A program made the translations under genes and the position numbers. The notes under the pieces are model-generated. The model was given only the letters and a program-made list of their open reading frames with translations, was not told where the DNA came from and made no database searches. From Patescibacteria group bacterium (GTDB lineage: Bacteria > Patescibacteriota > 4484-211): a stretch of DNA of 34,222 nucleotides. The stretch is taken from contig JAHISN010000064.1 in assembly GCA_018818265.1 (NCBI GenBank), forward strand, positions 1 to 34,222, written 5' to 3'. This document shows positions 2,819 through 24,520 of the stretch, piece by piece. Position 1 is the first letter of the stretch, and the number at the start of each line of letters is the position of its first letter.

Positions 2819-3289
2819 TTACCCTATACTTACAGACCATCTTAAAGTTAAAGTATCACTACTCGTTTTTGTTCTACTAATTGCCAAATGACAAAATAAA
2901 GTACCTGAATCTGCGGTGCTCGTTGCACTATCACCAAACAATCCAGCCTCTTTTAATTCCCCATTTGCCTCTTCTATTGAAAAAAAGGTTTCAAAAAGGG
3001 CAACATTGCCAGAAACACTTCTAACCGACACCAACTTTCTAAATATTTCTGCACCCAAAACCGTGTCTGTGACCTCTGGGGCTGTTAAGTCGGTTCCTAA
3101 AGCACAATAAGTTATAATTCCTTTATTACTCGCAGTCGTACCACGTAAACCGTCGGCCATCGAAGCCTTACCTGCGCTGGTAACTAAATTATTTACCAGA
3201 TACCTATCCTCTATCCCAGTTTTTACGTTTCTGAAAATTAACTCAACTTTTCCCTCTGGTATAATTTTGTCATTAAGTTTTTCGTCCAT
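2819..3289 (-). CDS. Tail fibre / baseplate-associated structural protein
   Basis: This 156-residue protein contains a stretch typical of phage tail proteins: LVTSAGKASMADGLRGT, then ITYCALGTD and TDTVLGAEIFRK. A beta-rich C-terminus ends in LRWSVSIG. Proteins with this TNAGK...CALGTG pattern are found just downstream of the tail hub in many siphophages and probably form part of the tip. No enzymatic motif is visible. The start lacks a Shine-Dalgarno and has TATAAT 5 nt upstream of the ATG. The frame stays open after its stop into an HNH-like fragment, which suggests that an insertion once disturbed the 3' end. Confidence 0.55.
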   Translation of the reverse strand: MDEKLNDKIIPEGKVELIFRNVKTGIEDRYLVNNLVTSAGKASMADGLRGTTASNKGIITYCALGTDLTAPEVTDTVLGAEIFRKLVSVRSVSGNVALFETFFSIEEANGELKEAGLFGDSATSTADSGTLFCHLAISRTKTSSDTLTLRWSVSIG

Positions 3290-3305: not shown

Positions 3306-5612
3306 TTAACCCCAACTAAACAAATCCCATCTTGCCCTAGTGATCGGCGTTGTTTCATCGCTATCACACCAAGTAAAATAAGCACCGCAAGAATCAATAG
3401 TTAGCGAATCCAGCAGTGAGTCGGACAATAAAGCGTCTGATTTTTCTAACAATTCGTCAACAACTTCATCGTCGTCTAATTTAACCAAATTTTTGTCTAT
3501 TTCTAGTAACCTTATTAAGAATCCAATTATCCCAAGAGTTTTTGCGCTTGCTAGTTTTACCTTGTAGGTAAATATTCCAGCGCCCATTGATTTGCTAATA
3601 ACGCTTTGAATTATGTAGTCATCGTCAACTCCGTATTCTGTTAGGCTTATATTTATTGTTTGCCCAGAATTGAACCCAACCTCCTGCGTTTCAAAAGATC
3701 CCTCAACAATGTCATTTGAATAATCTGTCAATTCGGCGATAGCCCTATTTCTTGCCGAAGTAGTGGTCGAAATTGATGTATCAAATATTGCAAACTCCTG
3801 AACTCCATTCGCCATAATAGATTCCGTGTCCTCAACTGCGACCAAAATGGGAATATCATATTTATAGTTTACCTTTAATACATGGTCGGCTGTTAAAACT
3901 GAACCGCCAGAATCTTGCTCGATATATTTTTCCTGATAATTTAAGTACCAATCAAAACCAGAAGTATCAATATTTTTTATACCAAGGGTTTTTTCCTCAT
4001 ATCCAGTACCAGTGTCAACATAAACAGTGACATCGTGTGGCTTGTCGGGTAGATTAAACTTTGTTGTCTCCCCGTCGCCTACTGTTATGTAATCAGTCAA
4101 ATCTGAAAGTTTAGTACCACCTCTAACATATACACGGTTCTTCAACTGTGTGCTGTTTTTTGAGATATTTAGGTTTTTATATTTTGCGCAAGAACTGTCA
4201 ATATCAAAAGGAGACGAATAAGCATTCTCCGCAAAATAATGAATATCTTTATCGTAATCAATATACCAGTTCCTATTAGTAAGCTTGCATATATTCTTTA
4301 AAACCTGTGAAATTTGTAGGTAATTAAACGAGATCTGGTCTATGGTAACACCCTCCTCGACGTTCGTTGTTGTTATTCCTAGGCCAACACAATACGTACT
4401 AACGATGTCTTCTATAATCTCCTTATCAGTCATGTTTTCATAACTTTTGTGAACAAGATACCTGTCAAGTATTCTTGTATAATCAACACAATTTATATTC
4501 GCCATTACCGTGCCAACCCCCATTTTCTTTAAACTTATTGAAGTTACATATCCACCAAAAACCACGCCATAGTATCCGTCGGTGATTATCACTTCGTCAT
4601 CCGTTTCTGGTATGCCGTTTCCACTTCTATCTATAATGGAAAAACTGCAAGTATTTGCCTTTTCGTTGATTATATCTTCAATGACAATGCTTTGGTTTAT
4701 AATATCGGCCGTCCTGTCTATTCCACCTATTGTAATTACATCTGGCGCTGGTGAGGGAGAAGAAGACAGTGAGGGGGATGATGAGGGGGACTCGCTAGGT
4801 GATGAACTTGGGGATTGTGAAGAACTCTGACTAGATGATGGTGATAAGCTGGGGGATTCTGATGGCGAAACTGAACTTGAAGGTGAGGCGGAAGGGGAAT
4901 TGCTTGGGGATTCACTAGGTGATGAACTTGGGGATTGTGAAGAACTAGGACTTAAACTAGGACTTTGTGACGGTGAAACTGATGATGACGGAGACAATGA
5001 TGGGGATGGAGATGGGGACACACTACTACTTGGACTAACCGAAGGACTTTGTGACGGAGATGTAGAACTTGAAGGACTCAATGAGGGACTGGGAGAAGAA
5101 GCGTCTGCATAGACATAAAAACAAGTGTCAAATGACGCATAATTTACTCCTGCGTTGTAGTACCAACCATTTCCAGAGTGTGTCGGAGATGTATCATCGA
5201 CTCCAACGGCAATATAGTTAGAGCTACTACCACCGTGAACCAATTCACCACCATATACAGAAGCAACATAATATGTTTCATCTGTTAATGTTATTTTTTC
5301 TTCCCCAGAAAAAATAAATGTAACCAAAGTTAAATCCGTTGACAGTTCTGAAATATCTACAGTATCAGAAATAGCGAGAACAGCCCCAGTTGCAACAGAT
5401 GATGTGCCATAAGTTCCAGAGTGAGCGTGAATTGTTGCACAAACAGTTCCCGTTGGAACTCCCTCTTTCGCTAAATAAAACTTAATACTGTTTAAAACCC
5501 CACCGTCACCAGTAAAAGATTGCCCAACATATCTCCAACGGTAATCATCGTCATCAAGTCCAGCATAAGAATGATAGTTACTTTCTGAATATGAATCTAC
5601 TATTGTCGCCAT
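3306..5612 (-). CDS. Baseplate hub protein (gpD/gp27-like) with N-terminal beta-sandwich and Ser/Pro repeat linker
   Basis: This 768-residue protein has an unusual three-part build. Residues 1-170 are a beta-rich domain (YVGQSFTGDGGVLNSIKFYLA...) of the kind seen in carbohydrate-binding or anchor modules. Residues 171-289 are low-complexity Ser-Pro-Ser-x repeats. From about residue 293 (ITIGGIDRTADIINQSIVIED) to about 690 the sequence resembles phage late-control protein D / gp27-like tail hubs, with LKNICKLTNRNWYIDYDK, NRVYVRGG and ARNRAIAELTDYS. It follows the tape measure with a TAATG overlap, the usual place for a hub. No separate distal tail protein was seen between the two. The Ser/Pro linker probably presents the N-terminal domain away from the tail tip and may be glycosylated. 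Confidence 0.7.
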   Translation of the reverse strand: MATIVDSYSESNYHSYAGLDDDDYRWRYVGQSFTGDGGVLNSIKFYLAKEGVPTGTVCATIHAHSGTYGTSSVATGAVLAISDTVDISELSTDLTLVTFIFSGEEKITLTDETYYVASVYGGELVHGGSSSNYIAVGVDDTSPTHSGNGWYYNAGVNYASFDTCFYVYADASSPSPSLSPSSSTSPSQSPSVSPSSSVSPSPSPSLSPSSSVSPSQSPSLSPSSSQSPSSSPSESPSNSPSASPSSSVSPSESPSLSPSSSQSSSQSPSSSPSESPSSSPSLSSSPSPAPDVITIGGIDRTADIINQSIVIEDIINEKANTCSFSIIDRSGNGIPETDDEVIITDGYYGVVFGGYVTSISLKKMGVGTVMANINCVDYTRILDRYLVHKSYENMTDKEIIEDIVSTYCVGLGITTTNVEEGVTIDQISFNYLQISQVLKNICKLTNRNWYIDYDKDIHYFAENAYSSPFDIDSSCAKYKNLNISKNSTQLKNRVYVRGGTKLSDLTDYITVGDGETTKFNLPDKPHDVTVYVDTGTGYEEKTLGIKNIDTSGFDWYLNYQEKYIEQDSGGSVLTADHVLKVNYKYDIPILVAVEDTESIMANGVQEFAIFDTSISTTTSARNRAIAELTDYSNDIVEGSFETQEVGFNSGQTINISLTEYGVDDDYIIQSVISKSMGAGIFTYKVKLASAKTLGIIGFLIRLLEIDKNLVKLDDDEVVDELLEKSDALLSDSLLDSLTIDSCGAYFTWCDSDETTPITRARWDLFSWG
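4745..5100 (-). repeat. Ser-Pro-Ser-x coding repeat in the hub gene
   Basis: About 119 codons encode SPS-x units (x is mostly S, L, V, E, Q, N). The basic unit is 4 codons, or 12 bp. Ser is encoded by both TCN and AGY codons and Pro by several CCN codons, so the DNA copies differ while the protein pattern is kept. One longer block, gaacttggggattgtgaaga, occurs twice, which suggests local duplication. Confidence 0.85.
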
Positions 5613-7246
5613 TAGAACCTCACATTACCTTTTAACTGGGTAATGATAAGATCTCCGACTTTTTCAGCCATTGACCTTGCGCCGTATTCATCGGTTATCA
5701 TTGCCCCATCAAGACTTATATTCAATGCCAAATTTGACGTACCAGCGCCCGCTAGGGATAGGTGTTGTGTGTCAATCGGCTCAACACCCACTTTTAGATC
5801 ATCAAACGCCCTGTTGACCAGTCCGACCCCTTTATGGACAATATCTACCACCGAGGGAGAGTGTCTTTTGGTAAAGTCTAAAGCGTTTTTTATATTTTCC
5901 ACAATTCCTTTGATAGTCTCCCACGCCTTTCTGAAAGGCTCTGTAAGAACATCAAGCAACCAGCCACCCCAACCAGATAGGAATGAAATTATCCCATTGA
6001 ACATATTTTTTAAACCATCCCAAGCAACCTGAGAATAGTGTTTGATTGCGTCCCAAGCACCCTGCCAGTTTCCAGTAAGTAAGTTTAAGAAAACCACAAA
6101 TATTCCAACTATTACACCAAAATTCCACTGCAAGAAACCAACAATAAACTCCCATGCGCCTTTCAAAATTTTAGATATATTTTCCCAATTTTGTACCCAA
6201 AAATTATACAGATTTGTAAATATTTCTACCAATGATCTATATAAAAAACCAGCAATGGAAACGACTGGTGGTACGACTGCGTTTACAAAATACATAAATT
6301 CAGACCACAAGCTTTGTAATAACGGGACTACATTTGCCACAAATAAACTAATTAAAGGCTCTAAAAATACAATTAGATTATTCCACACTATACCCATTTC
6401 GCTTAATACGTTTGATAAAGCACCACCTTCTTTCGAAGATTGAGTTAATACAGAGACAAAATTAGAAACCCCATCAACAACTGTCGCCATTAAGCCAACA
6501 AAAAATGCCAAGACTGGGTTAAGAATGTCCCCTATTTTTACCTTTAAATCAAGTATCTTAATGCCCAGTTCTGCTTGTTTGTCAATTAAAGTACCAGTAA
6601 ATCTCTCCGAAGAACCTAGTGTCAAGTTTGTCAAGTCCATTGTACCCCTAAGCTTGGCCATATCATCGGTAATATCCTTTGTCGCAACTCCTTCCTTTTC
6701 CAAAGCTATCCGACCTTTATCTATAATATCCGACCAGTTTTCTGACATACCAGACATATTTCCCAATGCACTATTTCCAGTAGCATAGGCAAAAGACAAG
6801 TTTTGTACCGCCTGAGCAAGTGAGATGTTTGCCGACTTGCCTGTTATGGCTTCGTTTGTAAACCTCTTCATTAACTCAACCGATTGATCTAAGTTTAATC
6901 CTGATTTCAACAAGTTCTGTAAACTTTCAGCCGAAGCACCAACGCCAATTCTTAAACTTTTCCCAAGTTCTGTCGCCTTCTCTTTGGCCACGTCCGCACT
7001 AACACCAAATTTACCAGCGATAATGTCTAAAGAAATCATCGCCCTTTCAAAATTAGAGGCTTCCAAACTAGCTTGCTTTCCAAAATCAACTATTTTACTA
7101 ATCGCAAATGCGCCAGCTATAACACCACCAAGTTTTGTCATCAAAGACCCCAATTTGCTTGTACTCCCGCTTATTTCCCCGATACCTTTTTGGAAATCGC
7201 TTGTGTCTGCTTTAATTTTGGCAACTGCTGATCCTATCTCAAACAT
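5612..7246 (-). CDS. Tail tape measure protein
   Basis: This 544-residue protein sets tail length and is ejected with the DNA. The N-terminus (IGSAVAKIKADTSDFQKGIGEI) is typical of tape measures, followed by an Ala/Lys-rich helical region with FGKQASLEASNFERAM and KATELGKSL. Hydrophobic segments occur at about residues 38-55, 240-258 and 365-390 (FIVGFLQWNFGVIVGIFVVF), as expected for a protein that enters the host membrane. It is short for the family, and at the usual scale of about 1.5 angstrom per residue it implies a tail near 80 nm. The gene follows the tail chaperone pair by 4 bp and is coupled to the hub gene by TAATG. The start has TAAAAT 6 nt upstream rather than a clear Shine-Dalgarno. 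Confidence 0.88.
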   Translation of the reverse strand: MFEIGSAVAKIKADTSDFQKGIGEISGSTSKLGSLMTKLGGVIAGAFAISKIVDFGKQASLEASNFERAMISLDIIAGKFGVSADVAKEKATELGKSLRIGVGASAESLQNLLKSGLNLDQSVELMKRFTNEAITGKSANISLAQAVQNLSFAYATGNSALGNMSGMSENWSDIIDKGRIALEKEGVATKDITDDMAKLRGTMDLTNLTLGSSERFTGTLIDKQAELGIKILDLKVKIGDILNPVLAFFVGLMATVVDGVSNFVSVLTQSSKEGGALSNVLSEMGIVWNNLIVFLEPLISLFVANVVPLLQSLWSEFMYFVNAVVPPVVSIAGFLYRSLVEIFTNLYNFWVQNWENISKILKGAWEFIVGFLQWNFGVIVGIFVVFLNLLTGNWQGAWDAIKHYSQVAWDGLKNMFNGIISFLSGWGGWLLDVLTEPFRKAWETIKGIVENIKNALDFTKRHSPSVVDIVHKGVGLVNRAFDDLKVGVEPIDTQHLSLAGAGTSNLALNISLDGAMITDEYGARSMAEKVGDLIITQLKGNVRF

Positions 7247-9689: not shown

Positions 9690-10363
9690 ACCTCTATTTC
9701 TCCGACAATGTTCCTAATTCCATTTAGAAGCATTTTAGCTTTTGGGGCAATTAGATCATTGATACGATTTCCAGTACCAGACTTGCTATAAGAATAATCA
9801 CCAATTGACTCACTTTGTATGTTTGCCTTGTTAGTAGAAAAGAAACTATCTCCCATGTTTATTTTATATTCTACTTGGCAGGCAACCGCTCTTTTTAATT
9901 TCTCGGGAATAAATTTGTACCAAGTGTTTGGCACATTCTCACTATCAAAATGAGCGTCTTCTAATCTTGGAAATTTACCTAACTGAAAGATTCTATAATA
10001 AGAAGTACTATCTAGGGACACACTAAATTCTTCTGTGGTTAGCACTCCTGCCAGTGTACTGCTAAGACACATCTTTCTCTCTCCCTGACCAATTCCGCCT
10101 ATAATTTCAACCATACAGTATTTAAAATAGTCTTTTTGAAACAAGTTCTGATGTTTAGTTTGTAGTGTCAAAGATGTGGTAGAGCCACCCGTCGCCATCC
10201 CCCTGTATTCTACTTCAATCGCCTTGTCTTGAAACCCGACATAAGCGTCAATTAATTCCTCCGCCTGCGATATTTGATCTTCCGCTTCATCGTCATCTAT
10301 TACCGTGATATCGGCAAATTCTTCCAGTTCTGCGATTGTAAGATAATTTCTTTTACTAGCCAT
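9686..10363 (-). CDS. Head-tail connector protein (gp6/gp15-like)
   Basis: This 225-residue protein is probably the first connector ring bound to the portal. The N-terminus is helical (YLTIAELEEFADITVIDDDEAEDQISQAEELIDAYVGFQD), as in gp6-like connectors. A beta-rich insert follows (LTLQTKHQNLFQKDYFKYCMVEIIGG), then a helix LKRAVACQVEYKINMG. The C-terminal IQSESIGDYSYSKSGTG is a typical closing motif of the family. It overlaps the LamG/Ser-Pro gene by 8 bp and the adaptor gene by 4 bp. The beta insert makes it longer than the usual members. Confidence 0.75.
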   Translation of the reverse strand: MASKRNYLTIAELEEFADITVIDDDEAEDQISQAEELIDAYVGFQDKAIEVEYRGMATGGSTTSLTLQTKHQNLFQKDYFKYCMVEIIGGIGQGERKMCLSSTLAGVLTTEEFSVSLDSTSYYRIFQLGKFPRLEDAHFDSENVPNTWYKFIPEKLKRAVACQVEYKINMGDSFFSTNKANIQSESIGDYSYSKSGTGNRINDLIAPKAKMLLNGIRNIVGEIEV

Positions 10364-13300
10364 TTTTATATATCCAATTTTTAGTTAATTTATTATACCA
10401 TTTGAAATTGTTCGGTTGTTGGAAGGTCGTATCGTTTTTGTTTTCCCATTTATCTTTAGCCCCGAGATCGCTGACAAACTGAGTGTTGTTTTTTTCATAC
10501 CATTGTTGCTTAGGTGAAGGACTCGGTGAGAATGATGAGGATGGACTTAGTGAAGGTGATTGAGATGGAGAGGCCGATGAACTTGGTGATTCACTAGGTG
10601 ATTGTGACGGAGAAACAGAACTTGAGGGGGATTGGCTCGGACTAATAGAAGGACTTTGGCTCGGACTTGTGGATGAGGACGGTGAAACACTTGGTGAAAC
10701 AGACGGACTGCCCGAAGGGCTAGCTGATGAAGAAGGTGATTTGCTTGGCGACTCGCTTGGGGAAGCTGACTGGGAAACACTAGACGACGGTGATAATGAG
10801 GGAGAGATAGAAGGACTGGCGGACGGAGAAGATGACGATGATGTACTTGAGGACGGAGAAAGGCTGGCGCTATTAGAAGATGATGGACTAGCTGATGGGG
10901 ACACGGAAGATGACGGACTTAAAGACGGACTGCTCGAAGAACTGGGTGATAATGATGATGACGGGGAAACGGATGGGGATTCAGATGAAGAGGGACTTTT
11001 GGAGGGACTTTCTGACGAACTTGGAGACACTGACGGTGACTCACTTGGTGACTCGGATGGAGAAATTGAAGATGATGGAGATAGGCTGGGTGACTCACTT
11101 GGGGAAACGCTTGACGATTCACTAGAAATTTCCGACGGAGAAACACTACTAGACGGGCTTAAAGAGGGTGAGACTGATGAAGAAGGTGAACTAGAGGGGC
11201 TCTCACTTGGAGACGATGAGGGGGAGGTTGATGGTGAGTTTGACGGGCTCTCACTAGGAGACTGCGAAGAACTTGGACTTACTGACGGACTAACAGACGG
11301 CGACTCTGACGGAGACACGCTAGAAGATGGGGACGAGCTTGGACTTTCGGACGGGGATTCAGACGGAGAAACAGAACTACTTGGTGACAAACTAGGTGAA
11401 GCCGAAGACGACGGCGAGACAGATGGCGAGATAGACGGAGAATTAGATGGAGAATTTGACGGGGAAACAGATGAACTTGGGCTGGTAGAAGGTGATTGCG
11501 AAGAACTGGGGCTCAAAGAGGCGCTAGGACTTAAACTAGGTGACTGAGAAGAAGAAGGTGACAAGCTTGGGGAAGTTGATGAGCTCGGGGACTCGCTCGG
11601 ACTTTCACTTGATGATTCACTGGGACTTTCCGAACTTGAAGGAGATAGTGAAGGTGATTGGGAAGGAGAGTTGCTAGGGCTACTAGAAGGACTTAACGAC
11701 GGGCTTTGGCTTGGAGATTCACTAGGACTAACTGATGTCGATGGTGAGGTTGAAGGACTTTCCGAAGGGCTAACCGACGGTGAGATTGAACTGCTGGGTG
11801 AGAGGCTTGGAGATTCTGATGGTGATTCACTAGAGCTTGGAGAAAGCGAAGGAGACACCGAAGGACTTTCGGAGGGGCTCACCGAACTACTAGGGCTTAA
11901 AGAAGGTGACTCGCTGGGACTTTCAGAAGGACTTTCACTAGAACTCGGAGAAAGAGAGGGGGATTCAGATGGCGACAAAGAAGGGGAGATAGAACTTGAA
12001 GGGCTTGTACTCGGGCTTTCGCTCGGTGAAGTACTGGGAGATTCACTGGCAGACGGAGATAAGGAAGGGGATTCTGATGGAGATTGCGAGGGAGAGTTTG
12101 AAGAACTAGGACTTAAACTAGGGCTAGTAGAGGGAGAATTTGAAGGAGACTGTGAACTAGAGGGACTCAAAGAAGGGCTAACACTTGGGCTATTACTGGG
12201 AGAGATACTAGAACTTGGGCTTCGTGAGGGAGAATTAGAGGATGACGGACTACGACTAGGAGAGTTGGATGAAGAAGGACTAATAGACGGTGAATTTGAG
12301 GGAGAGGTGGAAGGACTGTTTGATGAGGATGGGGATAAACTAGGACTTTGAGAAGGGGAAAGAGATGGGGACAAGCTAGAACTAGGGGACAATGAGGGAC
12401 TTTGAGAAGAACTAGGGCTTGGTGAAGGCGACTCTGACGGGCTTTGGCTTGGAGAAGTAGACGGAGATTCGCTAGAACTTGGTGATAAAGATGGAGAAGC
12501 TGAGGGTGAGGCTGATGGACTTGGAGAATTTATAGTTCCGTCATAAAGACTTCCGATTTCGTCAGAAGTTAAGATTCGACTAAAAACAGCCAATTCATCC
12601 AAAACTGCGTCAAGCCCAACAGTTGCCTCTGTGCTTGCACCAACACAAAAAGTTGCCGTGCTATTATAGACAGTAGTCCCTATACCTCCCTGAACCAAAG
12701 TTCCTGCCTCACCAACACCGTTTTTGTAAAAAGTGCATGAATCTGAACTTATGTCAAAAGTCACTGCAACATGTGTCCATCTGCCTGTTGACACCGTAGA
12801 CGTACTTTTTAATTGGATTGCATGTCCACCAGACCAGTCGTTAGTACCATTATCTGTAACACTAACGTACAATTTATTATCGGAGTTTATAAAAAACAAA
12901 TAAGCTCTCTGGTTAGATGTGCCGTTCCACTTACCACATATATACCCGATACCAGTGGCGGTTTTTTTTATCCATGCTGAGATTGTAAAATCGCCAGACA
13001 AATCTAAATCAGTCTGTGAACCATCTGATATGTAAGCATATTGTGCCGAAGACAAAACCAAATTTAGTCCTTTTCCGAAAAAACCAGTTACATAAGACGG
13101 AGAACCAGAAAGGGTTAAATCATTGTTATTTTCGGTTGTGTCCAATGAATTGTCTTCGAATCTCCAATATCCAGCCAGATTATCATCATTCAACAGTCCA
13201 GTAGTGTTTAATTCTACTGAATTTATTGTACCATCATAAATACTGGCTACTTGGTCAGACGATAAGGCAAGCCCGTTAAAAACAGCCACATCGTCAAGTG

Positions 13301-13913
13301 ACCCAGTTACAAAAGAAATTGCCCCAGTGCTAAATGGGTCTCGACAACCAAACCGAACGACGTTTGTCGGGTCATACGAAGGGGCATTTGACCACGCCTT
13401 TGTTGTCTGAAGTGAACCATCGACGTAAATTTTCAAATTCGTTCCGTCCCATGTACCAGTAATCATGTGCCACCCACCATCGCAAACACTTGCCGTACCC
13501 ACGCACTGAGCCCAGTCCGTATTTTCAAGAGTGCCAGTATCTTTTCCTGAAACCAAGACTGCGTACCCAGAAGAATTTACATCTAACATAATTCCTGCGG
13601 TATTTGGTGTAACCGTATATGACGCAAAAATGGCCTGAATTGCTCCTGTTGTAGAGCTTTTTATCCAAGCATTAATCGAGAAGTTGCCCGTCGGCTTAAA
13701 ATCTGCATGGTCTGAAATTGAATACCCGTCATTACCATCTAAATCAACAGCCCCACCAAAAACACCATCCCCCTCCGCTGGGTCAGATATTGCCGTCAAA
13801 GTGTGACCTTGACTACTACTATCTGTAGTTAAAGCCCCAGATTCAAAACGATAATATGATTTGAGATATGTGCTATTAAAAAGACCTGTGGTTATGATTT
13901 CCGCTGAAGCCAT
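10356..13913 (-). CDS. Virion surface protein: two LamG domains, ~670-residue Ser-Pro repeat, Trp-rich C-terminus
   Basis: This 1185-residue protein has two concanavalin/LamG-like domains, at about residues 15-230 (YYRFESGAL..., FSINAWIKSS, GTWDGTNLKIYVDG) and 240-460 (GYWRFEDNSL, FTISAWIKK, LDELAVFSRILTSDEI). These folds usually bind glycans. Residues 464-1132 are Ser-Pro-Ser-x repeats with mucin-like composition. The last 50 residues hold three imperfect W-x-x-K-N motifs (QWYEKNNTQF, KWENKNDTTF, KWYNKLTKNW), possibly the virion anchor. The gene lies between the glycan island and the head-tail connector, with which it overlaps by 8 bp, so it may be a head or neck fibre. The gene directly upstream encodes a GT27-like glycosyltransferase, which could modify the repeat. 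TATAAT lies 5 nt before the ATG. Confidence 0.75.
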   Translation of the reverse strand: MASAEIITTGLFNSTYLKSYYRFESGALTTDSSSQGHTLTAISDPAEGDGVFGGAVDLDGNDGYSISDHADFKPTGNFSINAWIKSSTTGAIQAIFASYTVTPNTAGIMLDVNSSGYAVLVSGKDTGTLENTDWAQCVGTASVCDGGWHMITGTWDGTNLKIYVDGSLQTTKAWSNAPSYDPTNVVRFGCRDPFSTGAISFVTGSLDDVAVFNGLALSSDQVASIYDGTINSVELNTTGLLNDDNLAGYWRFEDNSLDTTENNNDLTLSGSPSYVTGFFGKGLNLVLSSAQYAYISDGSQTDLDLSGDFTISAWIKKTATGIGYICGKWNGTSNQRAYLFFINSDNKLYVSVTDNGTNDWSGGHAIQLKSTSTVSTGRWTHVAVTFDISSDSCTFYKNGVGEAGTLVQGGIGTTVYNSTATFCVGASTEATVGLDAVLDELAVFSRILTSDEIGSLYDGTINSPSPSASPSASPSLSPSSSESPSTSPSQSPSESPSPSPSSSQSPSLSPSSSLSPSLSPSQSPSLSPSSSNSPSTSPSNSPSISPSSSNSPSRSPSSSNSPSRSPSSSISPSNSPSVSPSLSPSSSQSPSNSPSTSPSLSPSSSNSPSQSPSESPSLSPSASESPSTSPSESPSTSPSSSISPSLSPSESPSLSPSSSESPSESPSESPSLSPSSSVSPSESPSVSPSLSPSSSESPSESPSLSPSSSISPSVSPSESPSTSPSTSVSPSESPSQSPSLSPSSSPSNSPSQSPSLSPSSSESPSESSSESPSESPSSSTSPSLSPSSSQSPSLSPSASLSPSSSQSPSTSPSSSVSPSNSPSNSPSISPSVSPSSSASPSLSPSSSVSPSESPSESPSSSPSSSVSPSESPSVSPSVSPSSSQSPSESPSNSPSTSPSSSPSESPSSSPSSSVSPSLSPSSSVSPSEISSESSSVSPSESPSLSPSSSISPSESPSESPSVSPSSSESPSKSPSSSESPSVSPSSSLSPSSSSSPSLSPSSSVSPSASPSSSNSASLSPSSSTSSSSSPSASPSISPSLSPSSSVSQSASPSESPSKSPSSSASPSGSPSVSPSVSPSSSTSPSQSPSISPSQSPSSSVSPSQSPSESPSSSASPSQSPSLSPSSSFSPSPSPKQQWYEKNNTQFVSDLGAKDKWENKNDTTFQQPNNFKWYNKLTKNWIYKNG
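10517..12528 (-). repeat. Large Ser-Pro-Ser-x coding repeat (about 2.0 kb)
   Basis: About 670 codons encode SPS-x units, where x is S, L, E, V, Q, N, T, A, I, K, R or G. Longer motifs such as SPSLSPSSSxSPS recur. Serine codons mix TCN and AGY and proline codons vary, so few exact DNA copies remain. The repeat produces long false ORFs on the plus strand rich in D, G, E and L. Strong protein-level periodicity with varied DNA points to selection on the amino-acid pattern. Confidence 0.9.
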
Positions 13914-13918
13914 AATTA

Positions 13919-13948
13919 ATTATACCTTTTCTCTCGGTCTTATCCCAA
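13919..13948 (-). promoter_or_regulatory. Putative promoter before the LamG/Ser-Pro gene
   Basis: The minus strand reads TTGGGA, an 18-nt spacer, TATAAT, five bases (TAATT) and the ATG. The -10 box is a perfect consensus. There is no good Shine-Dalgarno between it and the start, so the mRNA may be leaderless. The -35 lies inside the end of the upstream glycosyltransferase gene. Confidence 0.4.
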
Positions 13949-15616
13949 CAATCTTTTGACATTATCCCATTCGGAGATAGTATCAATCGTGCCTTCCTGC
14001 CATCTTTTGGGTTTACGTCTAAACTGGTCTATCCTCCACCTTTTTCGACTAACATTACTTCCATGAGTAATGTCTATACTAGGCTTAGGAGAATAAAAAG
14101 TCTTGAAGGGGTATGAATTTTCCCACTTAATTCTTCCATGGGTCATCGGTTCGAAACCTATCTTTAACATAGAAAACTCTTTAAACTGGTCTTTTTCCAT
14201 TAAAGCGATTCTTTCTTTAAAATGTTTAATAGCAATATCTCTGTAAACTACCAATCCCGATAAAGGTGAACAGTCATAACTAATAGCAAAACCATCGTTA
14301 AGTCTTAAAAACCAATAGTTTTCCTCGTAATACCAAGTGTTTCTATCTGGTGGAGTAAAGGCAAAATGTTCTGGGGGATACAAGACATCATGCTCACAAA
14401 AGAACACAATGTCTGTATCCAGCTCCTCTAAAGCAGTTAAAATTTGTTTAGTCATGGTCAAATACCCTCTCTCGCCTTTAAAAACTTTGTTCTTACCAAA
14501 ATCCATCGGTTTTAGAGAACAGGACACTATTGGTAATTTATGGTCTCGACAAGCACTTTTCCATAATTGTTTCTGACAAGCTTTCATAACCTTCTCATCT
14601 AACTGATTATCTGTGTAATATATGACCCCTTTTGTGCCTGATAGCTTCACTATAGGCTCTGTGCTTGACGTTTTTTCGACTACTGGTACTTTTCCACCTA
14701 TTTTTTTCAAATCATCTTCTGTCCATTTTGGTACTGGCCAGAATTTCTCTACTAACCAACTAATTGGTCGTTCACCTTTAAATCTCCCATCAAAAAACAT
14801 CTCCCGTGCAGTTTTTTTCGCATTTGAAATCTGACCCTGTCCTAGCAAGTATGGAAAACCAAAATCCCCTCCCTGAGTTCTAAATAAATGCGCATACCAA
14901 GTCTTATGGTTTATTATCACCCTTCCGCCAGAAAGCCAAGTCTTACACGCCACCTCGATTCCTTGAGAACCCCAATTGCCAAAGTTTTCATCACAAATAT
15001 TAAGCTCCCAATATTTATCTCTAGTCAACATAAAACAAGAGCCTTGAAGGGACATGCTTTCAGTTAGGTCTCCTTGGTCTTTGTACCATTGTCTATTTTT
15101 ACAATCATTGAAATATTGAAAGTGAGGTTCTGGGTCAAAACAATACGACGTGGATGAAGGGTTAGTTTTAGCAATCCAAACAACGTCCTTTTCCGTCGGC
15201 TCACCACATACTTTACAGACTCCGCTTGGGCTTTGATATCTGGTATGTCCATTCTTACACTTCCAATTAAATGCATGCAAATTCCTCATTATCGGGGCGA
15301 CAGTCCAGTCATCGTGCATATCAGCCATTAACTTCACGTCAAATCCCTGATCGAAGGCACAATGAGCGTCTACTTTCATCACATATTTTGCTTTTGATAA
15401 TCGGCAAAGTTGATTGGTCATTGCCCTTTGGCCAATTGACTCGGAAACATGAACAACAGTTACCCTAGGATTGTCTTTTATTGGAGTGGCAGGCCAATTT
15501 CCATCACAACCGACTATAATTTCTGTATTACCTTCTATGTGTTGCAAAATGTCATCTATCGTTCTGACCAAAAACTCCTCGTTTCGGGCTGGTATTAAAA
15601 TAGATAAATCGTACAT
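13940..15616 (-). CDS. Two-domain glycosyltransferase with GT27-like N-terminal domain
   Basis: This 558-residue protein starts as a GT-A fold (YDLSILIPARNEEFLVRTI). It has D83-A-H85 in KVDAHCAF, then WGSQGIEVACKTWLSGG at 215-231 and a late His243 in WYAHLFR. In GT27 polypeptide GalNAc-transferases the same three elements (D-x-H, WGGEN.E, GHVFR) hold the manganese ion and sugar donor. A zinc-ribbon-like insert sits at 120-140 (WKCKNGH...CKVCGEP). Residues 310-558 form a second domain starting GVIYYTDNQL, with FFCEHDVLYPPEHF, probably another GT-A-like transferase. The gene ends 26 bp before the Ser-Pro repeat gene, so modification of that protein is a reasonable inference. Plain GT2 glycan transfer is the alternative. 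Confidence 0.68.
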   Translation of the reverse strand: MYDLSILIPARNEEFLVRTIDDILQHIEGNTEIIVGCDGNWPATPIKDNPRVTVVHVSESIGQRAMTNQLCRLSKAKYVMKVDAHCAFDQGFDVKLMADMHDDWTVAPIMRNLHAFNWKCKNGHTRYQSPSGVCKVCGEPTEKDVVWIAKTNPSSTSYCFDPEPHFQYFNDCKNRQWYKDQGDLTESMSLQGSCFMLTRDKYWELNICDENFGNWGSQGIEVACKTWLSGGRVIINHKTWYAHLFRTQGGDFGFPYLLGQGQISNAKKTAREMFFDGRFKGERPISWLVEKFWPVPKWTEDDLKKIGGKVPVVEKTSSTEPIVKLSGTKGVIYYTDNQLDEKVMKACQKQLWKSACRDHKLPIVSCSLKPMDFGKNKVFKGERGYLTMTKQILTALEELDTDIVFFCEHDVLYPPEHFAFTPPDRNTWYYEENYWFLRLNDGFAISYDCSPLSGLVVYRDIAIKHFKERIALMEKDQFKEFSMLKIGFEPMTHGRIKWENSYPFKTFYSPKPSIDITHGSNVSRKRWRIDQFRRKPKRWQEGTIDTISEWDNVKRLLG

Positions 15617-15621
15617 AATTT

Positions 15622-15630
15622 AGTATAACA
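15622..15630 (-). promoter_or_regulatory. Extended -10 box 5 nt before the glycosyltransferase start
   Basis: The minus strand reads TGT-TATACT-AAATT-ATG. The TGn before the hexamer makes an extended -10 promoter, which needs no -35 box. The start has no Shine-Dalgarno, so this is another leaderless candidate. Confidence 0.35.
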
Positions 15631-15632
15631 GC

Positions 15633-16397
15633 CTAACCAACCCACTCCTTGTTCTTTTTAAGGATTCCCCGTGTAATTTGTGGATTATAACCGAGGGATT
15701 CAGCAAAAGCACACCAAGCATAAACATCCTTTGGAATACATTTAGAGCTCATGCCTCTTTTTTCTGGGTATATAAAAGTAAACCATAAATTAAATCTTGG
15801 ATCATCTCCGTAAACTGCGTCTCGAATTTGGTAGTAGTCGACTCCCGAAATTTCGCAAACATCATATAATTCCTGACACTGGGCAACCTTGAAGGCAATA
15901 GCTCTATTTTCGCTTAGTTTGATTATCTCCGCCTCCAATGAAGATACTTGGCGAATAGTTACGTTTGCATTATAAACCTCGGTGTATAGGTCAATTAAAT
16001 CCCTCCTTGCTTCTGGTTGTCCGCCGATAATTAAAAATGGCCTAGCCTTTGGATCTAATAATGGATGTTGCGGTGTCTCACCTAGATACTCTGGCTGAAA
16101 GACTATTTTTTTGTTATATTTTACCGACCAATTTAGGGTGTCGTTTGGGTTTACTGTTGATCTTATTACAATAAGAGGACACTTACACCACTCAACACAT
16201 TCTTCAACAATTGAAGTGTCCAGCCTACCTTCTTCTATACAAGGGGTTGGAACTCCTATAAAAGCCACGTCACAATTATTTACGTCTTCCTTTGTAACAT
16301 TATTTTTTAACATCGGATCGTAAATTGTGGCCTCTGGGAACAACTTCCCCATTGATTTGCCTACCCACCCGAAACCGATTATCGCTATTTTTTTCAT
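15633..16397 (-). CDS. Short UDP-glucose/GDP-mannose dehydrogenase-like protein
   Basis: This 254-residue protein has an N-terminal Rossmann NAD site (IAIIGFGWVGKSMG) and the family motifs VAFIGVPTP, FQPEYLGETP and EIIKLSENRAIAFKVAQCQELYDVCE. At Cys220 it keeps the family's catalytic cysteine context, as KCIPKD instead of the usual GGxCxPKD. Normal nucleotide-sugar dehydrogenases are about 390-450 residues and have a C-terminal substrate domain that is missing here. The protein could therefore be a minimal dehydrogenase acting on a different substrate or a domain that works with a partner. It is coupled by ATGA to the upstream GT2 gene. Oxidation of a UDP- or GDP-sugar for the island is inferred. 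Confidence 0.72.
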   Translation of the reverse strand: MKKIAIIGFGWVGKSMGKLFPEATIYDPMLKNNVTKEDVNNCDVAFIGVPTPCIEEGRLDTSIVEECVEWCKCPLIVIRSTVNPNDTLNWSVKYNKKIVFQPEYLGETPQHPLLDPKARPFLIIGGQPEARRDLIDLYTEVYNANVTIRQVSSLEAEIIKLSENRAIAFKVAQCQELYDVCEISGVDYYQIRDAVYGDDPRFNLWFTFIYPEKRGMSSKCIPKDVYAWCAFAESLGYNPQITRGILKKNKEWVG

Positions 16398-17125
16398 AGT
16401 TTGTTTGGTTGTGCAACAGGCTCATAACTTAAAGAATGAAACAAACCTTTTGGGTTTAGATCATAATTCACGTTATATCTACCTATTGGAAATATATAAA
16501 TTTTAGAACCTACGATTGGTTTAAGACCGTACTTGACGGCATAATGATTCCACCTCGTATTAAAATATGAGTCCTCGCCTTTCTTTGAAGTGGCATGATG
16601 TCCGTAAGTACAAGCCTTCTCTGGGTATCCGCCGAGATTTTCAAATGTAGATTTCTTCATACAAAAAGTATTCCCGTGATATGAAGCATATAAACCCCTC
16701 TTGGAAGTAAAACGTGATTCATCTATCCCGTAATCTTTCAAAACTTGTTTTTCCTGAGTCAAGCACCCATCTTCATCCAAAACTGCCAAAAATCTAGGGA
16801 AAATCATTTTATCACCAGTAAAATTATATGAGTCCATTATTGCCTCGTAAGACAATATGTGATCGGCGTCAGTCATTAAAATATACTCACCAGACGATTC
16901 CTTTACCCCCCTGTTTCTCGCCAACCCCTGAGTCCAAGGGCGTTTATCATTTGTATAGATAATCTTCAAGTTTTTTAAGCTATAGCCCTCATGTCGGGGA
17001 GAACTGCCATCGTCTACTAGTATAAATTCTATATCGTCGGGAAGTTGGAGTTTGGAGAAAAACTTCATTTGCCTCTCTATGACACCGTGACTGTTATAGA
17101 CTGCTATTATTATTGATAGTTTCAT
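16394..17125 (-). CDS. GT2 family glycosyltransferase
   Basis: This is a GT-A glycosyltransferase of about 243 residues. It begins MKLSIIIAVYNSHGVIE and has FILVDDGSS, then ARNRGVKESSGEYILMTDADHIL with the metal-binding DxD-type motif, and a middle motif GNTFCMKKSTFENLGGYPE. All are typical of GT2. The ORF track begins six codons earlier, but the ATG at 17125 overlaps the upstream TGA as ATGA and starts exactly at the first core strand, so that start is preferred. It transfers a sugar from a nucleotide donor in the cytoplasm. No membrane segment is seen. Confidence 0.85.
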   Translation of the reverse strand: MKLSIIIAVYNSHGVIERQMKFFSKLQLPDDIEFILVDDGSSPRHEGYSLKNLKIIYTNDKRPWTQGLARNRGVKESSGEYILMTDADHILSYEAIMDSYNFTGDKMIFPRFLAVLDEDGCLTQEKQVLKDYGIDESRFTSKRGLYASYHGNTFCMKKSTFENLGGYPEKACTYGHHATSKKGEDSYFNTRWNHYAVKYGLKPIVGSKIYIFPIGRYNVNYDLNPKGLFHSLSYEPVAQPNKL

Positions 17126-17736
17126 TTTACATATAGCCAACACTTGTTGGAATTATTGGTTGTTACAAACCAAGGTTTAATTTTATAAGATTTCATCCAC
17201 CCATCGACGGCATTAATAACATTCATGTCCTTCCAACGTCTACTATTTGAGTAATCATCAAAGTCGTGTCCATATATAATTCCGCCCTTTTTTACCTTTT
17301 TTGACCACAAGGCGATATCTTCAACGACGTATTCATAGGCGTGGTTTCCGTCTATAAACACAAAATCTAACGACTCATCGGGAATAGTCTTGACCACCCA
17401 ATTACTCCACCCTTGAATTAAAGTAGCCCTATCACCATATTTTTTATACACCTCGATGGATTCTCTATGAGCGTCTTTTATATCTTCCCTGTGGTAATCC
17501 TTGTATCCTGTGTACACCTCCCAAGCGTCTACACCTATTAGTTGCAAGTTTGGGTTTCTGTCTAAAAGATGTCTCGAATACGAAGCCCTATAAACACCAA
17601 TTTCAGCCCCTTTGTTGAAGCCTAGTTCACACAAAAGTTTTGGTATGTCCTTAAATCTCCCTATTGCCAACATTATCGGGGATGGTTGATTTAGGTCAAT
17701 GTTAAATTTTTTGACGATATAATCTAAAGTTTCCAT
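17122..17736 (-). CDS. Class I SAM-dependent methyltransferase (Methyltransf_24-like)
   Basis: The protein is 204 residues from the preferred start at 17736 (METLDYIVKK), which has GGAAAG about 7 nt upstream. The ORF track uses a GTG nine codons earlier. Motif I is GAEIGVYRASYSRHLL, followed by IGVDAWEVYTGY (motif II) and LDFVFIDGNHAYEYVVEDIALW (motif IV/post-IV). GGIIYGHDFDDY is typical of the CmcI/Methyltransf_24 group. Members often methylate sugar hydroxyls in polysaccharide or glycoprotein gene clusters. It lies between two glycosyltransferase genes with overlaps on both sides, so methylation of the sugar being built is the likely role. Confidence 0.8.
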   Translation of the reverse strand: METLDYIVKKFNIDLNQPSPIMLAIGRFKDIPKLLCELGFNKGAEIGVYRASYSRHLLDRNPNLQLIGVDAWEVYTGYKDYHREDIKDAHRESIEVYKKYGDRATLIQGWSNWVVKTIPDESLDFVFIDGNHAYEYVVEDIALWSKKVKKGGIIYGHDFDDYSNSRRWKDMNVINAVDGWMKSYKIKPWFVTTNNSNKCWLYVK

Positions 17737-18587
17737 AATTTTTCTTTCCAATTTGATGGCCACGACGGCATTAAAGGGAATTGCTCAATTAAACTAATAA
17801 AAAAGTCCTTGTTTTCGACCATCCATTTGCTATAAGAATAAGCATAAGATTTTCTGTTTTCGTTACGGCTCATCCAGTACATCCTTCCATACTTTTGACC
17901 TTTGTGGAGATGGGCATACCAAGTGTTCTTGTTTGTTACCACCCTTCCGCCGTTCAACCATGTAGTAAAAGAAATTTCCTCCGCTTCTTGACCCCAGCCA
18001 GTATATCCCTCAACTTGCATAAAACCCATCTTGTTAAACCAATCTTTTTCCATAAACCAACACGAACCCTGAAACGTGATAGTGTCGTCGATGGGGATAT
18101 CCCACCTCTCTAGCGTCCTCTCATCCCACTTAAAACCGTGAATACCAAGATCAGTAAAAAGAGGTTTGTACATAATATATTCGTAATCTATTGGTGGTCG
18201 ATTATCGCTCTGGGTTTGTAAGCACCAATTCTCTGCGTCCAGCCTATGTCTTCTTGGTATTTGCACCCAATTTGGTTGACTGTCCTTAACCAGCTGTTCA
18301 TCAAACCCTTTAGCGAACATGCAATGTGCGTCAACAGACATAACATATTTACCAGTACAAATTGAAATTGCATGATTTATTCCGTGTCTTTTCTGGGTGT
18401 ATGTGACTTTTGGAAGTCGGATATAATTTACTCTTGGATCTTTGACAATCTCCTCGGCTGGTGGCTCGTAACCGTCTAAAATTGGGAATACCTCTATTTC
18501 ACCTGTCGCATTTTTTAAAATGTCCTCAATCGTATTTTTTAAAAAGATCTCGTTTCTCGATGGAATAACAATGCTTACTTTATCCAT
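17724..18587 (-). CDS. GT27-like glycosyltransferase (GT-A fold)
   Basis: This 287-residue protein is related to the N-terminal domain of the two-domain enzyme at 13940-15616. It opens DKVSIVIPSRNEIFLKNTIEDIL. D86-A-H88 occurs in SVDAHCMF, GSCWFMEKDWFNKMG at about 174-188, WGQEAEEISFTTWLNGG at 198-214 and His226 in WYAHLHKG. The D-x-H, WG.E..E and late-His arrangement corresponds to the manganese and donor site of GT27 polypeptide GalNAc-transferases; GT2 relatives are close. Only the WG-E motif here keeps the second glutamate seen in the family. It overlaps the methyltransferase gene. It may add the first sugar to Ser/Thr in a virion protein, or extend a glycan. Confidence 0.72.
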   Translation of the reverse strand: MDKVSIVIPSRNEIFLKNTIEDILKNATGEIEVFPILDGYEPPAEEIVKDPRVNYIRLPKVTYTQKRHGINHAISICTGKYVMSVDAHCMFAKGFDEQLVKDSQPNWVQIPRRHRLDAENWCLQTQSDNRPPIDYEYIMYKPLFTDLGIHGFKWDERTLERWDIPIDDTITFQGSCWFMEKDWFNKMGFMQVEGYTGWGQEAEEISFTTWLNGGRVVTNKNTWYAHLHKGQKYGRMYWMSRNENRKSYAYSYSKWMVENKDFFISLIEQFPLMPSWPSNWKEKLWKL

Positions 18588-18593
18588 AGTCTG

Positions 18594-19631
18594 TTATATC
18601 AACTTTGACAAAAAATGTCTAATGATCTTCTCTTCCTTATCAAAGTCAACCTTATTTTTAAAATTATAATATGAGTTGTTACATAGTTCTTTCCATTGCC
18701 GAGAGTAATATTCAATCTTATTCTTTATCTCCAAGGGGTTTAAACCGTCAATACAAACACACGTTTTTCCGTCTATCATTAAGTCTTCTCCCAACTTACC
18801 AGAATAATACTCCTTTTTAACAATCATTGGCCTACCACAAGCACTAGCATTGTGAATTATGTGACCGTAACCATCACCGCCCTTTTTCGTATGCCAAATA
18901 AAGCCAGCCTTTGCAATTGTTTTGGCGACTTCCGCCTCACCATGCGCCTGTCCATCACGACACTGACCGCCCATGCACTTAAAATTCCACTCTGGCATTA
19001 GTTTTTCAACCTTTTGGAATAGCTCCCAATCCTCTTTAAACATTCCGTCATTAGAGAAGCAATTAACTAGCGAAGTGATGTTAGGTTCGAACACCTCACT
19101 AGAAGCCCTAGAAAAGACGTTTGTGTCAAATTCTTGATGATATACCACACTATTCTTGTTCGCTATGGCTATGCGAGAAGAGCACATGATATTGTCAGCT
19201 TTTTCGGCCTCCCCGACCCACTGATTGCCAATTTGGAAAATAAGTTTAGGTCTTGACCAGTGTTCTTTGCATAACTTTTTAAACGGTTCAACATGTTTTG
19301 GAATTGAGGCAATTATGATCCCGAAGTTCATCTCCCTAAATTTGTCTAAGGTAATTGCCCTATTTGTCTTTAAAGAGGATATGTCGTGGCAAATGTAAAC
19401 TCCGCTTTCACCAGTAATAACATCATTCACGGGGTCGGTGTTGTCTGGGGTAGCCCCATTAACATCCAAAAACTGTGCTACCGTGGCTGGGTGATCGTAA
19501 ACCTTCCAATATCCTTCATCAAACCACTGTCTGCCGATGGGTCGATAAACTTTCCACCCCAACCTCCTCTCAAATAATAGAATTAATGAATTAAGAAGTC
19601 CTGCATGATGGAAATCACATAGCACGTTCAT
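18594..19631 (-). CDS. Putative GT-B-fold glycosyltransferase
   Basis: This 345-residue protein was not assigned to a named family. The N-terminal half (MNVLCDFHHAGLLNSLILLFERRLGWKVYRP) looks like the first Rossmann domain of a GT-B enzyme. The C-terminal half has CFSNDGMFKEDWELFQ, AGFIWHTKKGGDGYGHIIHNASACGRPMIV, and DGKTCVCIDG. The KGGDGYGH...ACGRPMIV stretch occupies the place of the donor-binding E-x7-E region of GT4 enzymes, although the second Glu is not clear. Coupled by ATGA to its upstream neighbour. The assignment as a glycosyltransferase is by context and fold pattern. Confidence 0.6.
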   Translation of the reverse strand: MNVLCDFHHAGLLNSLILLFERRLGWKVYRPIGRQWFDEGYWKVYDHPATVAQFLDVNGATPDNTDPVNDVITGESGVYICHDISSLKTNRAITLDKFREMNFGIIIASIPKHVEPFKKLCKEHWSRPKLIFQIGNQWVGEAEKADNIMCSSRIAIANKNSVVYHQEFDTNVFSRASSEVFEPNITSLVNCFSNDGMFKEDWELFQKVEKLMPEWNFKCMGGQCRDGQAHGEAEVAKTIAKAGFIWHTKKGGDGYGHIIHNASACGRPMIVKKEYYSGKLGEDLMIDGKTCVCIDGLNPLEIKNKIEYYSRQWKELCNNSYYNFKNKVDFDKEEKIIRHFLSKLI

Positions 19632-20323
19632 TTTCTATCTAAGTATTCTTGGCATACTTTTATAAAGTTAGGATGTAGTGTTTCCTTGCTGTTTAGAGAG
19701 TCGGCAATGTATTTATCAAACCTATCTACTTCATAGTTTGGAACTCCGCCATTTGCAATTAGACTAAAATTACTGCTAAGCCCATTTAAGTGTTCGTATA
19801 GTCCAGCGCTAATTCTAATCACCGAAATGTTCTTTATGTCTTGCTGAAACTTATAAAAATGATCTGCAACGCCTGGGGTAATGCTAAAGTCTCTCCTTGT
19901 TTTGTCTACGACAGCTCTTTTAGCAAAAATACAACAAGGGTGAAGCCTATCCCCTTGATATGCGCCAATTACGTTTACGTTATTTAAGTCCATTGTAATT
20001 TGGCTGATATATTCCCAAAACTCTTCATTGGGGTAAAAATCTTGTTCTGTAAACCACACCCATTCAGAACTACACAAAGTTAGCCCAAAGTTTGTTGATA
20101 TATTTCTCCAATCTTGTCCTGAAAGAACAGGTGGGGACTTAACTACCGTGCAATAACCTCCCATTTCCTCTTTTATAAAATCACTGTAGTCATACCCTTG
20201 ATTTGTCTCGGTGATGACAATAATGACATCTTTAAACCTATTTCTGTTTTCCCTTATAAATTTTCGCCACATTGGATAATCGCAATTTCTTGGCCAACTA
20301 ATTACAATATCTGGTACGATCAT
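19628..20323 (-). CDS. Putative GT-A-like glycosyltransferase
   Basis: This 231-residue protein has an N-terminal strand-helix start (DIVISWPRNCDYPMWRKFIRENRNRF) with a following IIVITETNQGYDYSDF. EWVWFTEQDFYPNEEFW is in the place of the DxD metal motif, and the C-terminal part is rich in Asn and Tyr. It resembles glycosyltransferase-like proteins found in phage glycan clusters, but no clear CAZy family can be named. ATGA overlaps link it to both neighbours, so it is made in the same chain of coupled genes. Confidence 0.5.
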   Translation of the reverse strand: MIVPDIVISWPRNCDYPMWRKFIRENRNRFKDVIIVITETNQGYDYSDFIKEEMGGYCTVVKSPPVLSGQDWRNISTNFGLTLCSSEWVWFTEQDFYPNEEFWEYISQITMDLNNVNVIGAYQGDRLHPCCIFAKRAVVDKTRRDFSITPGVADHFYKFQQDIKNISVIRISAGLYEHLNGLSSNFSLIANGGVPNYEVDRFDKYIADSLNSKETLHPNFIKVCQEYLDRK

Positions 20324-21339
20324 AGTCCTAACTCCTTATATGCTTTTTGTCTTTTTAACACCGTTTTTCTGTGAACTCCGCTAAGAGCATAGATTCTATC
20401 TAAAGCTTTTCGGTATTCTTCCCTAAATTCACATATCTCGTTCGGATCTGAATTATCGTAAAATGTTTGCCACCACTGTATTCTTCTTGCCCACTCATCT
20501 ATGTGTGCCTCGGCCAACTTAAACTCTCTTGGTTCAACACAAATCTTTCTATTTGAAAGACTTATTCCCCTATCATCAACCAAAACTCCACCAACACCAC
20601 TACTCAAACTTCCTACATGAGTCCAAGCCGATAAACCATTCCATAGATACTGTCGTTTTTCCCAGTGAACCAAGTCTTCGGGGCTACCATGATATTGTTG
20701 TAGGCATAAGAACTTTAATCCTTTAGACCTTAATATGAGGCTAGTGTTTACAAAAGTGTCTCCATATCCAGTTTCTTTCATCACATAATTCAATGGTTCT
20801 ACAACTTCACCCTTCTCCCAAGCCTTGGCCTTAAAGTGCCTATCAGTGTCTAACAATGTCTGTGTCTTACAGAAAAAGAAACATGGCCAAAAATTACATC
20901 CATGATCCCCCAAACCCTCATAATCAACTCCCCACTTTCTTTTGGCTTCTTCTAGTATTTCAAAAGCACAACTGCCCCTCTTCGAGCCAACACAATCCAC
21001 CTCTCCGTCCTCAACGTGTTTAAAACAAGAATCAATATGGCCTTTCTTGAAGACATAAGCGTCATCTTCGACCAGCATTACATATTCTTCCTTGCACATT
21101 TCCAATAAGATTTTGATGGCGTCACCATGTTCTATTTGGTGGTCTATATATACAAAACTAGCCCCGTATCTTTCGAGGAGTTTTTGTTCGTACTCTATGA
21201 CCTCTTTCTCTATGCTCGAATTTAAACAAACATATAATTTGTCGACTTCATCCTTATAGTATTTGGCATAGTTCTCAAGCCAATATTTTAATAGGAACGG
21301 GTCGCACGGGGTTGGTAATAAAACTGCTCTACTTCTCAT
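20320..21339 (-). CDS. GT-A-like glycosyltransferase
   Basis: This 339-residue protein starts AVLLPTPCDPFLLKYWLENYAKYYKDEVDKLYVCLN. The EDD in YVMLVEDDAYVFKKGHID is the likely nucleotide-sugar and metal site, and GLGDHGCNFWPCFFF and GYGDTFVNTSLILRS follow. These fit a GT-A fold of the GT2-related group. The C-terminal 80 residues are helical and basic (KALDRIYALSGVHRKTVLKRQKAYK), which may contact nucleic acid, membrane or a partner. It overlaps the upstream methyltransferase gene by 11 bp and the downstream gene by ATGA. The acceptor is unknown. Confidence 0.6.
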   Translation of the reverse strand: MRSRAVLLPTPCDPFLLKYWLENYAKYYKDEVDKLYVCLNSSIEKEVIEYEQKLLERYGASFVYIDHQIEHGDAIKILLEMCKEEYVMLVEDDAYVFKKGHIDSCFKHVEDGEVDCVGSKRGSCAFEILEEAKRKWGVDYEGLGDHGCNFWPCFFFCKTQTLLDTDRHFKAKAWEKGEVVEPLNYVMKETGYGDTFVNTSLILRSKGLKFLCLQQYHGSPEDLVHWEKRQYLWNGLSAWTHVGSLSSGVGGVLVDDRGISLSNRKICVEPREFKLAEAHIDEWARRIQWWQTFYDNSDPNEICEFREEYRKALDRIYALSGVHRKTVLKRQKAYKELGL

Positions 21340-23091: not shown

Positions 23092-23210
23092 ACTTGAACA
23101 TCGTCACTTCGATTTTGACAGACAAGTACTTTTGGCTTATTGGCTATGTGAACGTAATAGGCCAATACAAGAATTAAACAAATGTACATAATCGTTTCCA
23201 TTTTTCTCAT
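23061..23210 (-). CDS. Small single-span membrane protein in the glycan island
   Basis: This 49-residue ORF is missing from the ORF track because of its length. ATG at 23210-23208 overlaps the TGA of the upstream GT4 gene as ATGA, and its TGA overlaps a possible GTG start of the next gene. The protein has a hydrophobic segment MYICLILVLAYYVHIA (about residues 8-23) and then a short tail with two cysteines (VLVCQNRSDDVQVC). It may anchor glycan enzymes at the membrane. No family was recognised. Position in a chain of coupled genes supports it being translated. Confidence 0.55.
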   Translation of the reverse strand: MRKMETIMYICLILVLAYYVHIANKPKVLVCQNRSDDVQVCTVMNYLGK

Positions 23211-24331: not shown

Positions 24332-24332
24332 T

Positions 24333-24509: not shown

Positions 24510-24520
24510 ATTTGTATAAA

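Follow-up and report, generated by a model that had tools for sequence, protein, structure and literature searches.

A Dit-less tail hub with a predicted N-terminal beta-sandwich on a (Ser-x)n stalk, and glycosyltransferases that track such stalks

Background

In evolved Dit and C-terminally extended Tal proteins, CBMs are grafted onto a structural protein of the tail tip and swapped between relatives, the modules sitting either in loops of Dit or C-terminal of the hub core (PMC7291167). The Ceduovirus hub (L14c2 / ORF34bIL67) is predicted to carry an N-terminal CBM-type domain ahead of a short Tal/VgrG-like core, there being no canonical Dit or Tal, and Ceduovirus has paired Hcp-like ring proteins (PMC12474359). 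The Tal-like core of lambda gpJ and of T5 pb3 does not lie at the N-terminus either (PMC12474359, PMC7291167). The Douge central fibre gp20 is a separate tail-tip protein with host-glycan-binding domains; central-fibre domains, CFP-NTD among them, bind mycobacterial glycans in isolation (PMC13033339). Finally, the serine-rich-repeat adhesins (GspB, Fap1, SRRP) show a binding domain on a long stalk with alternating Ser residues, are glycosylated on these alternating residues, and are co-located with dedicated glycosyltransferases (PMC6973325).

This framework helps to interpret a tail hub gene in the window, i.e., the entire stretch of 34,222 nucleotides analysed here. Our main reading, to which we assign a probability of about 0.65, is that it encodes the hub of a Dit-less siphovirus-like phage with an exchangeable N-terminal adhesion arm, the stalk of which is probably O-glycosylated by an accessory transferase set of the same window.

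Gene layout and segments of the hub

The hub gene is one unbroken ORF of 768 aa on the minus strand (5612→3306), which agrees with the coordinates of the earlier note, 3306-5612. The computed boundaries delimit a beta-sandwich (the N-domain; residues 1-171, 5100..5612), a (Ser-x)n stalk (residues 172-289, 4746..5099) and a gp27-type core (residues 290-768 plus stop codon, 3306..4745), all on the minus strand, so that the ORF, the segment analysis and the predicted folds jointly confirm the initial description of a sandwich and stalk preceding the hub core. The gene overlaps by one base the tape-measure (TMP) gene directly upstream (5612..7246, minus strand; phrog_991 E 2.2e-18 and other TMP families). 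On its other side lies a conserved gene, g2819 (2819..3289, minus strand; phrog_5417 E 6.7e-19), which is found directly downstream of the hub in relatives as well, with 50-68% identity in most of the clade relatives examined. The order TMP-hub-g2819 is conserved in relatives, with both hub ends sitting in it, and the hub gene directly following the tape measure, here as in the relatives, is the gene order of a tail hub. An IMG/VR contig identical to the window (L001) comes from this very virus and so adds no independent support. Further downstream, a tail-region protein (1399-2292) ends in an FN3-like domain (weak PF16656 match) of the type seen as the hub arm of many relatives.

The hub core and exchange of its N-terminal arm

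The predicted structure of the core has a mean pLDDT of 73 and a pTM of 0.46, the core blocks lying mostly at 75-93 and the last 75 residues being unreliable. Foldseek matches it to the hubs of eCIS, HFTV1, MuSo2 and Mu gp44 (E 2e-17 to 1e-13), to 1wru (E 6e-14) and to T4 gp27 (1k28; E 9e-9), with VgrG also matched. These matches of the predicted fold bear out the gpD/gp27-like identity first proposed for this protein and argue that the C-terminal core is a hub of the gp27/gpD type. Recognition by sequence families is weak (phrog_4930 baseplate hub, E 1.2e-5), and as there is no PF05954 (Phage_GPD) match in the genome, the kinship to gp27/gpD/Tal hubs is seen by fold and phrog_4930 only. A Pfam search with the whole protein returned nothing, and a PDB sequence search matched mainly the low-complexity stalk. 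Relatives of the core at 57-65% identity occur on about 30 viral contigs and in one Gottesmanbacteria bin; distant ones, at 24-37% identity, come from sources that include Firmicutes and Methanosarcinales viruses or genomes. Taken with the Gottesmanbacteria relative (L119), the small genomes in the phylum of the source bin point to a CPR host, though short of proof.

A survey of 31 distinct hubs with at least 55% core identity showed an N-terminal arm in 19, while 9 begin at the core and 3, nearly identical to each other, have a lectin-like insert within the core. The 19 arms comprise 13 of FN3-like type, four with a further domain plus the FN3-like one (two sandwiches, one LamG and one 490-residue type), one 212-residue sandwich, and that of the window. 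Even hubs as similar as L002 and L043, with 75% of the core in common, differ in being armed and armless, respectively. Since 19 of the 31 hubs carry arms of several kinds, the hub N-terminus is a swap site in this clade. The premise of the earlier note that such a hub normally begins with its core was thus only partly right, given these N-terminal additions, those of the Ceduovirus hubs and the position of the core in lambda gpJ and T5 pb3. A second grafting site is apparent in the hub ORFs of L083, L084 and L086, where the lectin-like domain is inserted in the core after about residue 188.

The N-terminal beta-sandwich

The AlphaFold2 model of the N-domain (pLDDT 83, pTM 0.82) is all beta, with twelve strands and no helix of four or more residues, upholding the separate beta domain that had been read from the sequence as 170 residues. 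Its best PDB match by Foldseek is the Douge central fibre (E 6.7e-4, TM 0.59, 12% identity, partial overlap), followed by the lectin-like domain of Cwp84 (TM 0.53-0.63) and then by CBM16, CBM6 and CBM4; among viral models it matches uncharacterised phage proteins and actinophage minor tail proteins. The structure prediction that the earlier note had called for hence supports a separate lectin/CBM-like sandwich; the Foldseek matches are modest, and such common beta-sandwich folds need not bind sugar. By sequence, the N-domain of the window matches no Pfam, PHROG or NCBIfam family, those of CBMs included, and only one of the 13 members of its own family touches Laminin_G_3 (2.7e-4). A tblastn search across 50,697 named phages gave no match.

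The other 12 members, which are viral and 36-52% identical to the window, mostly start stalked or fibre-like proteins (L135, L137, L138, L139, L141). The domain recurs on a related hub (L101), and also on L144, a stalked protein that by eye resembles a different kind of tail hub and has no PHROG family match. Additionally, close homologues lie inside proteins of 2227 and 1760 residues in genomes of the same phylum (L147 in G040 and L148 in G113, respectively), a sequence relationship that suggests exchange between viruses and cells.

The (Ser-x)n stalk and a second stalked protein

The stalk has 118 aa, of which 70 are Ser and 27 Pro. The SPS-x repeat of about 119 residues reported earlier is thus real as a stalk, its unit being more properly a strict (Ser-x)n dipeptide, with Ser at 58 of 59 alternate positions and x being Pro in 27 cases and otherwise mainly Ser, Leu, Gln, Val or Glu. 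Ser or Thr occupies 98% of the alternate positions as against 22% of the others, a pattern matched by none of 2000 composition-preserving shuffles. As it is encoded with six different Ser codons, and exact DNA repeats are short, the pattern is maintained at the protein level. The stalk shares with the serine-rich-repeat adhesins a Ser in every other position along an extended segment; no description of (Ser-x)n stalks in phages was found in the open-access literature. One N-domain protein (L139) and its neighbours have long Thr/Ser stalks instead of Ser/Pro ones, and its record holds six GT2 matches and no homologue of GT13940, the transferase discussed below.

A second (Ser-x)n protein of the window, a probable fibre of 1185 aa (10356..13913, minus strand), has two LamG domains (PF13385 E 3e-41), a 672-aa stalk and C-terminal W/Y-K-N motifs; its stalk, like those of L135, L138, L141 and L144, has 100% in-phase Ser/Thr. 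In the window, L004, L005, L007, L011 and L012, the position immediately before the adaptor gene is occupied by a probable fibre that is large and varies strongly. Short Trp/Tyr-Lys-Asn motifs (e.g., ...FKWYNKLTKNWIYKNG) recur at the C-termini of these fibres and might be a signal for attachment.

Glycan genes and their link to the stalks

Two gene sets of differing distribution can be distinguished on the minus strand between the fibre and the capsid gene. The core glycan cluster (18594..25744), with seven genes, lies between the accessory block and the capsid gene. All seven have homologues in nine of nine large hub-clade contigs, eight of which lack a (Ser-x)n stalk, and throughout the hub clade the cluster sits between the capsid and adaptor genes. 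The core cluster thus does not track stalks, and the idea of the entire glycan cluster acting on the stalk is rejected on account of these eight stalkless relatives. Capsid or tube proteins are candidate acceptors for it.

The accessory block (13940-18587) comprises GT13940, a two-domain GT2 glycosyltransferase (13940..15616; PF00535, 40 bits), a UDP-sugar dehydrogenase-like gene with a further GT2 (15633..17143; PF00984/PF03721, PF00535), a methyltransferase (17122..17763; PF13578, 60 bits) and a second stalk-linked GT2, GT17724 (17724..18587). None of the nine large hub-clade contigs has the block, save for one 28% methyltransferase fragment. Among the 11 other stalked contigs with a length of 15 kb or more, 8 have a homologue of GT13940 (44-60%, E at most 1e-101), as against 0 among 32 stalkless contigs (p about 1e-6, or 3e-7 with the window included, for controls that are not lineage-matched). 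Likewise, any GT2 match of at least 40 bits is seen in 10 of 12 stalked contigs, window included, and in 0 of 32 stalkless. The stalked contigs, many of them fragments, were found by the N-domain or by an SPS DNA pattern, which gave five genuine cases among the matches listed, many others being chance or other low-complexity repeats; the controls leave out G326 (Thr-Pro repeat), and in some of them the scan covered all but a few kilobases.

Linkage is tested more strongly by searching in the opposite direction. Among 18 contigs fetched by GT13940 alone, 16 have a (Ser-x)n ORF (two of these being one virus), and the two stalkless ones are cut near GT13940. A separate orthologue-like gene for GT17724, absent from the nine hub-clade contigs, occurs in 17 of the 18 and a homologue of the accessory methyltransferase in 15, while the dehydrogenase-like gene and its neighbouring GT2 were not found in hub-clade relatives. 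In the phages so fetched, nothing matches the hub core, capsid or tail tube of the window, and its TerL is matched just once, over a short stretch in L405; two of the GT13940 contigs, L396 and L403, also carry the N-domain. Of 96 same-phylum genomes, one other has a strong homologue of GT13940, adjacent to a serine-repeat ORF; at this locus (L420, G085:C14 about 42.4-47.4 kb) the adjoining ORF runs off the contig end, and the contig also holds helicase-like and other chromosomal-looking genes. Across 50,697 named phages, tblastn with GT13940 gave no match, and an NCBIfam scan of six transferase or cluster proteins of the window detected neither GtfA nor GtfB.

The earlier suggestion that the stalk is a second acceptor for the glycan system must consequently be narrowed: the core cluster, present in eight stalkless relatives, does not fit it, and the accessory set does. 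Further, stalks can occur without GT13940, as seen in L144, L139 and L011. This linkage fits modification of the hub or the fibre alike and does not tell which.

Proposed mechanism and alternatives

We propose that the core forms a gp27-type hub, presumably trimeric, under the tail tube, and that a jelly-roll lectin/CBM-like head would be held off the tail by the 118-residue stalk on the hub N-terminus. In this exposed position the head would most likely make reversible contact with host surface glycans. The accessory transferase set probably attaches O-linked glycans to Ser residues of the hub stalk and would also serve the larger (Ser-x)n fibre beside it; by analogy with the serine-rich-repeat adhesins, such glycosylation would keep the stalk extended and protected. 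The receptor-binding arm that the earlier note suggested is, as a putative adhesion arm of the hub itself, the best reading.

Artefacts of assembly or of domain assignment offer little competition to this reading. Since the longest exact repeat within the hub stalk DNA is 32 nt, and the longest stretch it has in common with the other stalk gene (10356-13913) is 24 nt, a collapsed or swapped assembly is unlikely. A chimera joining a fibre N-terminus to the hub via serine repeats, conceivable with two serine-repeat genes on one contig of a single assembly, is rejected as very improbable in view of that 24-nt maximum, the TMP before and g2819 after the hub as in relatives, and the recurrence of the N-domain-hub fusion in L101. 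The genome has no Dit gene, either by PF05709 (Sipho_tail) search or by gene order between tape measure and hub, and the N-domain might hence be a divergent ring domain of Dit type that has been joined to the hub as a replacement. However, close relatives without the domain keep the same Dit-less order. The adjacency of tape measure and hub holds in L003, L004, L005, L007, L011, L012, L101, vir515 and THSA-485A, while in L006 and L119 two or three additional genes intervene, none with a Dit family. The absence reported earlier is accordingly correct, but as a family trait it does not single out this hub. Moreover, homologues of the N-domain occur on fibre-like proteins, and the 50 best PDB matches include no Dit structure. 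The standard Dit-like ring that the earlier note had weighed against its own reading is not seen, and a Dit identity of any kind, which we reject, has only the slimmest chance.

More substantial are two alternatives concerning function. The arm could be a plain spacer or decoration, which stabilises the virion or aids cell-surface diffusion with no specific receptor binding. Many phage structural proteins carry Ig/FN3-type domains as such decoration, FN3-like domains often bind weakly or non-specifically, and relatives with FN3-like arms or none indicate that the arm is dispensable in the clade. We consider this distinctly unlikely, as the N-domain resembles lectin-like and CBM folds, is carried at the distal tip of a long stalk, and belongs to a series of arms exchanged among unrelated fold types, LamG included. 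The stalk, in turn, could be an unmodified disordered linker, with capsid, tube or the fibre of 1185 aa as targets of the transferases and the fibre alone behind the linkage. Only 26 nt separate the accessory set from the fibre gene, so that the fibre could be the real acceptor; the core cluster occurs independently of stalks, and the record of L144 (50.9 kb), with its stalked hub-like protein, has neither a GT2 nor a GT1 match. Against this, the hub of the same virus bears the (Ser-x)n signature, which an enzyme reading the fibre should read too, and strict alternation is unneeded in a plain linker. This alternative is tentative and, on balance, rather unlikely.

If a glycosylated adhesion arm is the correct reading, the hub N-terminus joins the sites at which siphovirus-like phages graft host-binding modules, and an unnamed beta-sandwich family acquires a likely adhesion role. 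A defined transferase set would be tied to a defined acceptor signature, and phage protein O-glycosylation could be put to the test using three genes and a single stalk peptide. Host recognition by viruses of tiny, uncultured bacteria may also come into view, the hub clade including a Gottesmanbacteria bin. More broadly, we give even odds to a mobile virion-glycosylation module in uncultured phages, which would combine (Ser-x)n stalk proteins, exchangeable lectin-like heads and a GT2-type set (GT13940, GT17724 and the methyltransferase) as a phage counterpart of the serine-rich-repeat adhesins, here grafted onto a tail hub.

Comparison with known systems

With the Douge central fibre the window hub shares the best fold match of its N-domain and a tail-tip location, although gp20 is a separate protein, matched at low identity over a partial overlap in a domain that is not specified. 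As in evolved Dit and extended Tal proteins, a predicted CBM-like module is grafted onto a tail-tip structural protein and arms are swapped between relatives; the window arm differs in being N-terminal. The serine-rich-repeat adhesins correspond in their alternating Ser, long stalk and co-located transferases, but in the window x is often Pro, the anchor is a phage hub in place of an LPXTG motif (the translation ends in the hub core), and a two-domain GT2-type enzyme stands in for GtfA/GtfB. The Ceduovirus hub likewise has an N-terminal CBM-like sandwich before the core and no Dit, and is unlike the window in that neither a (Ser-x)n stalk nor a transferase linkage is described for it. The window hub is thus a variant of the known hub-borne binding modules, closest to the Ceduovirus hubs, and the linkage of stalk and transferase is its most original part.
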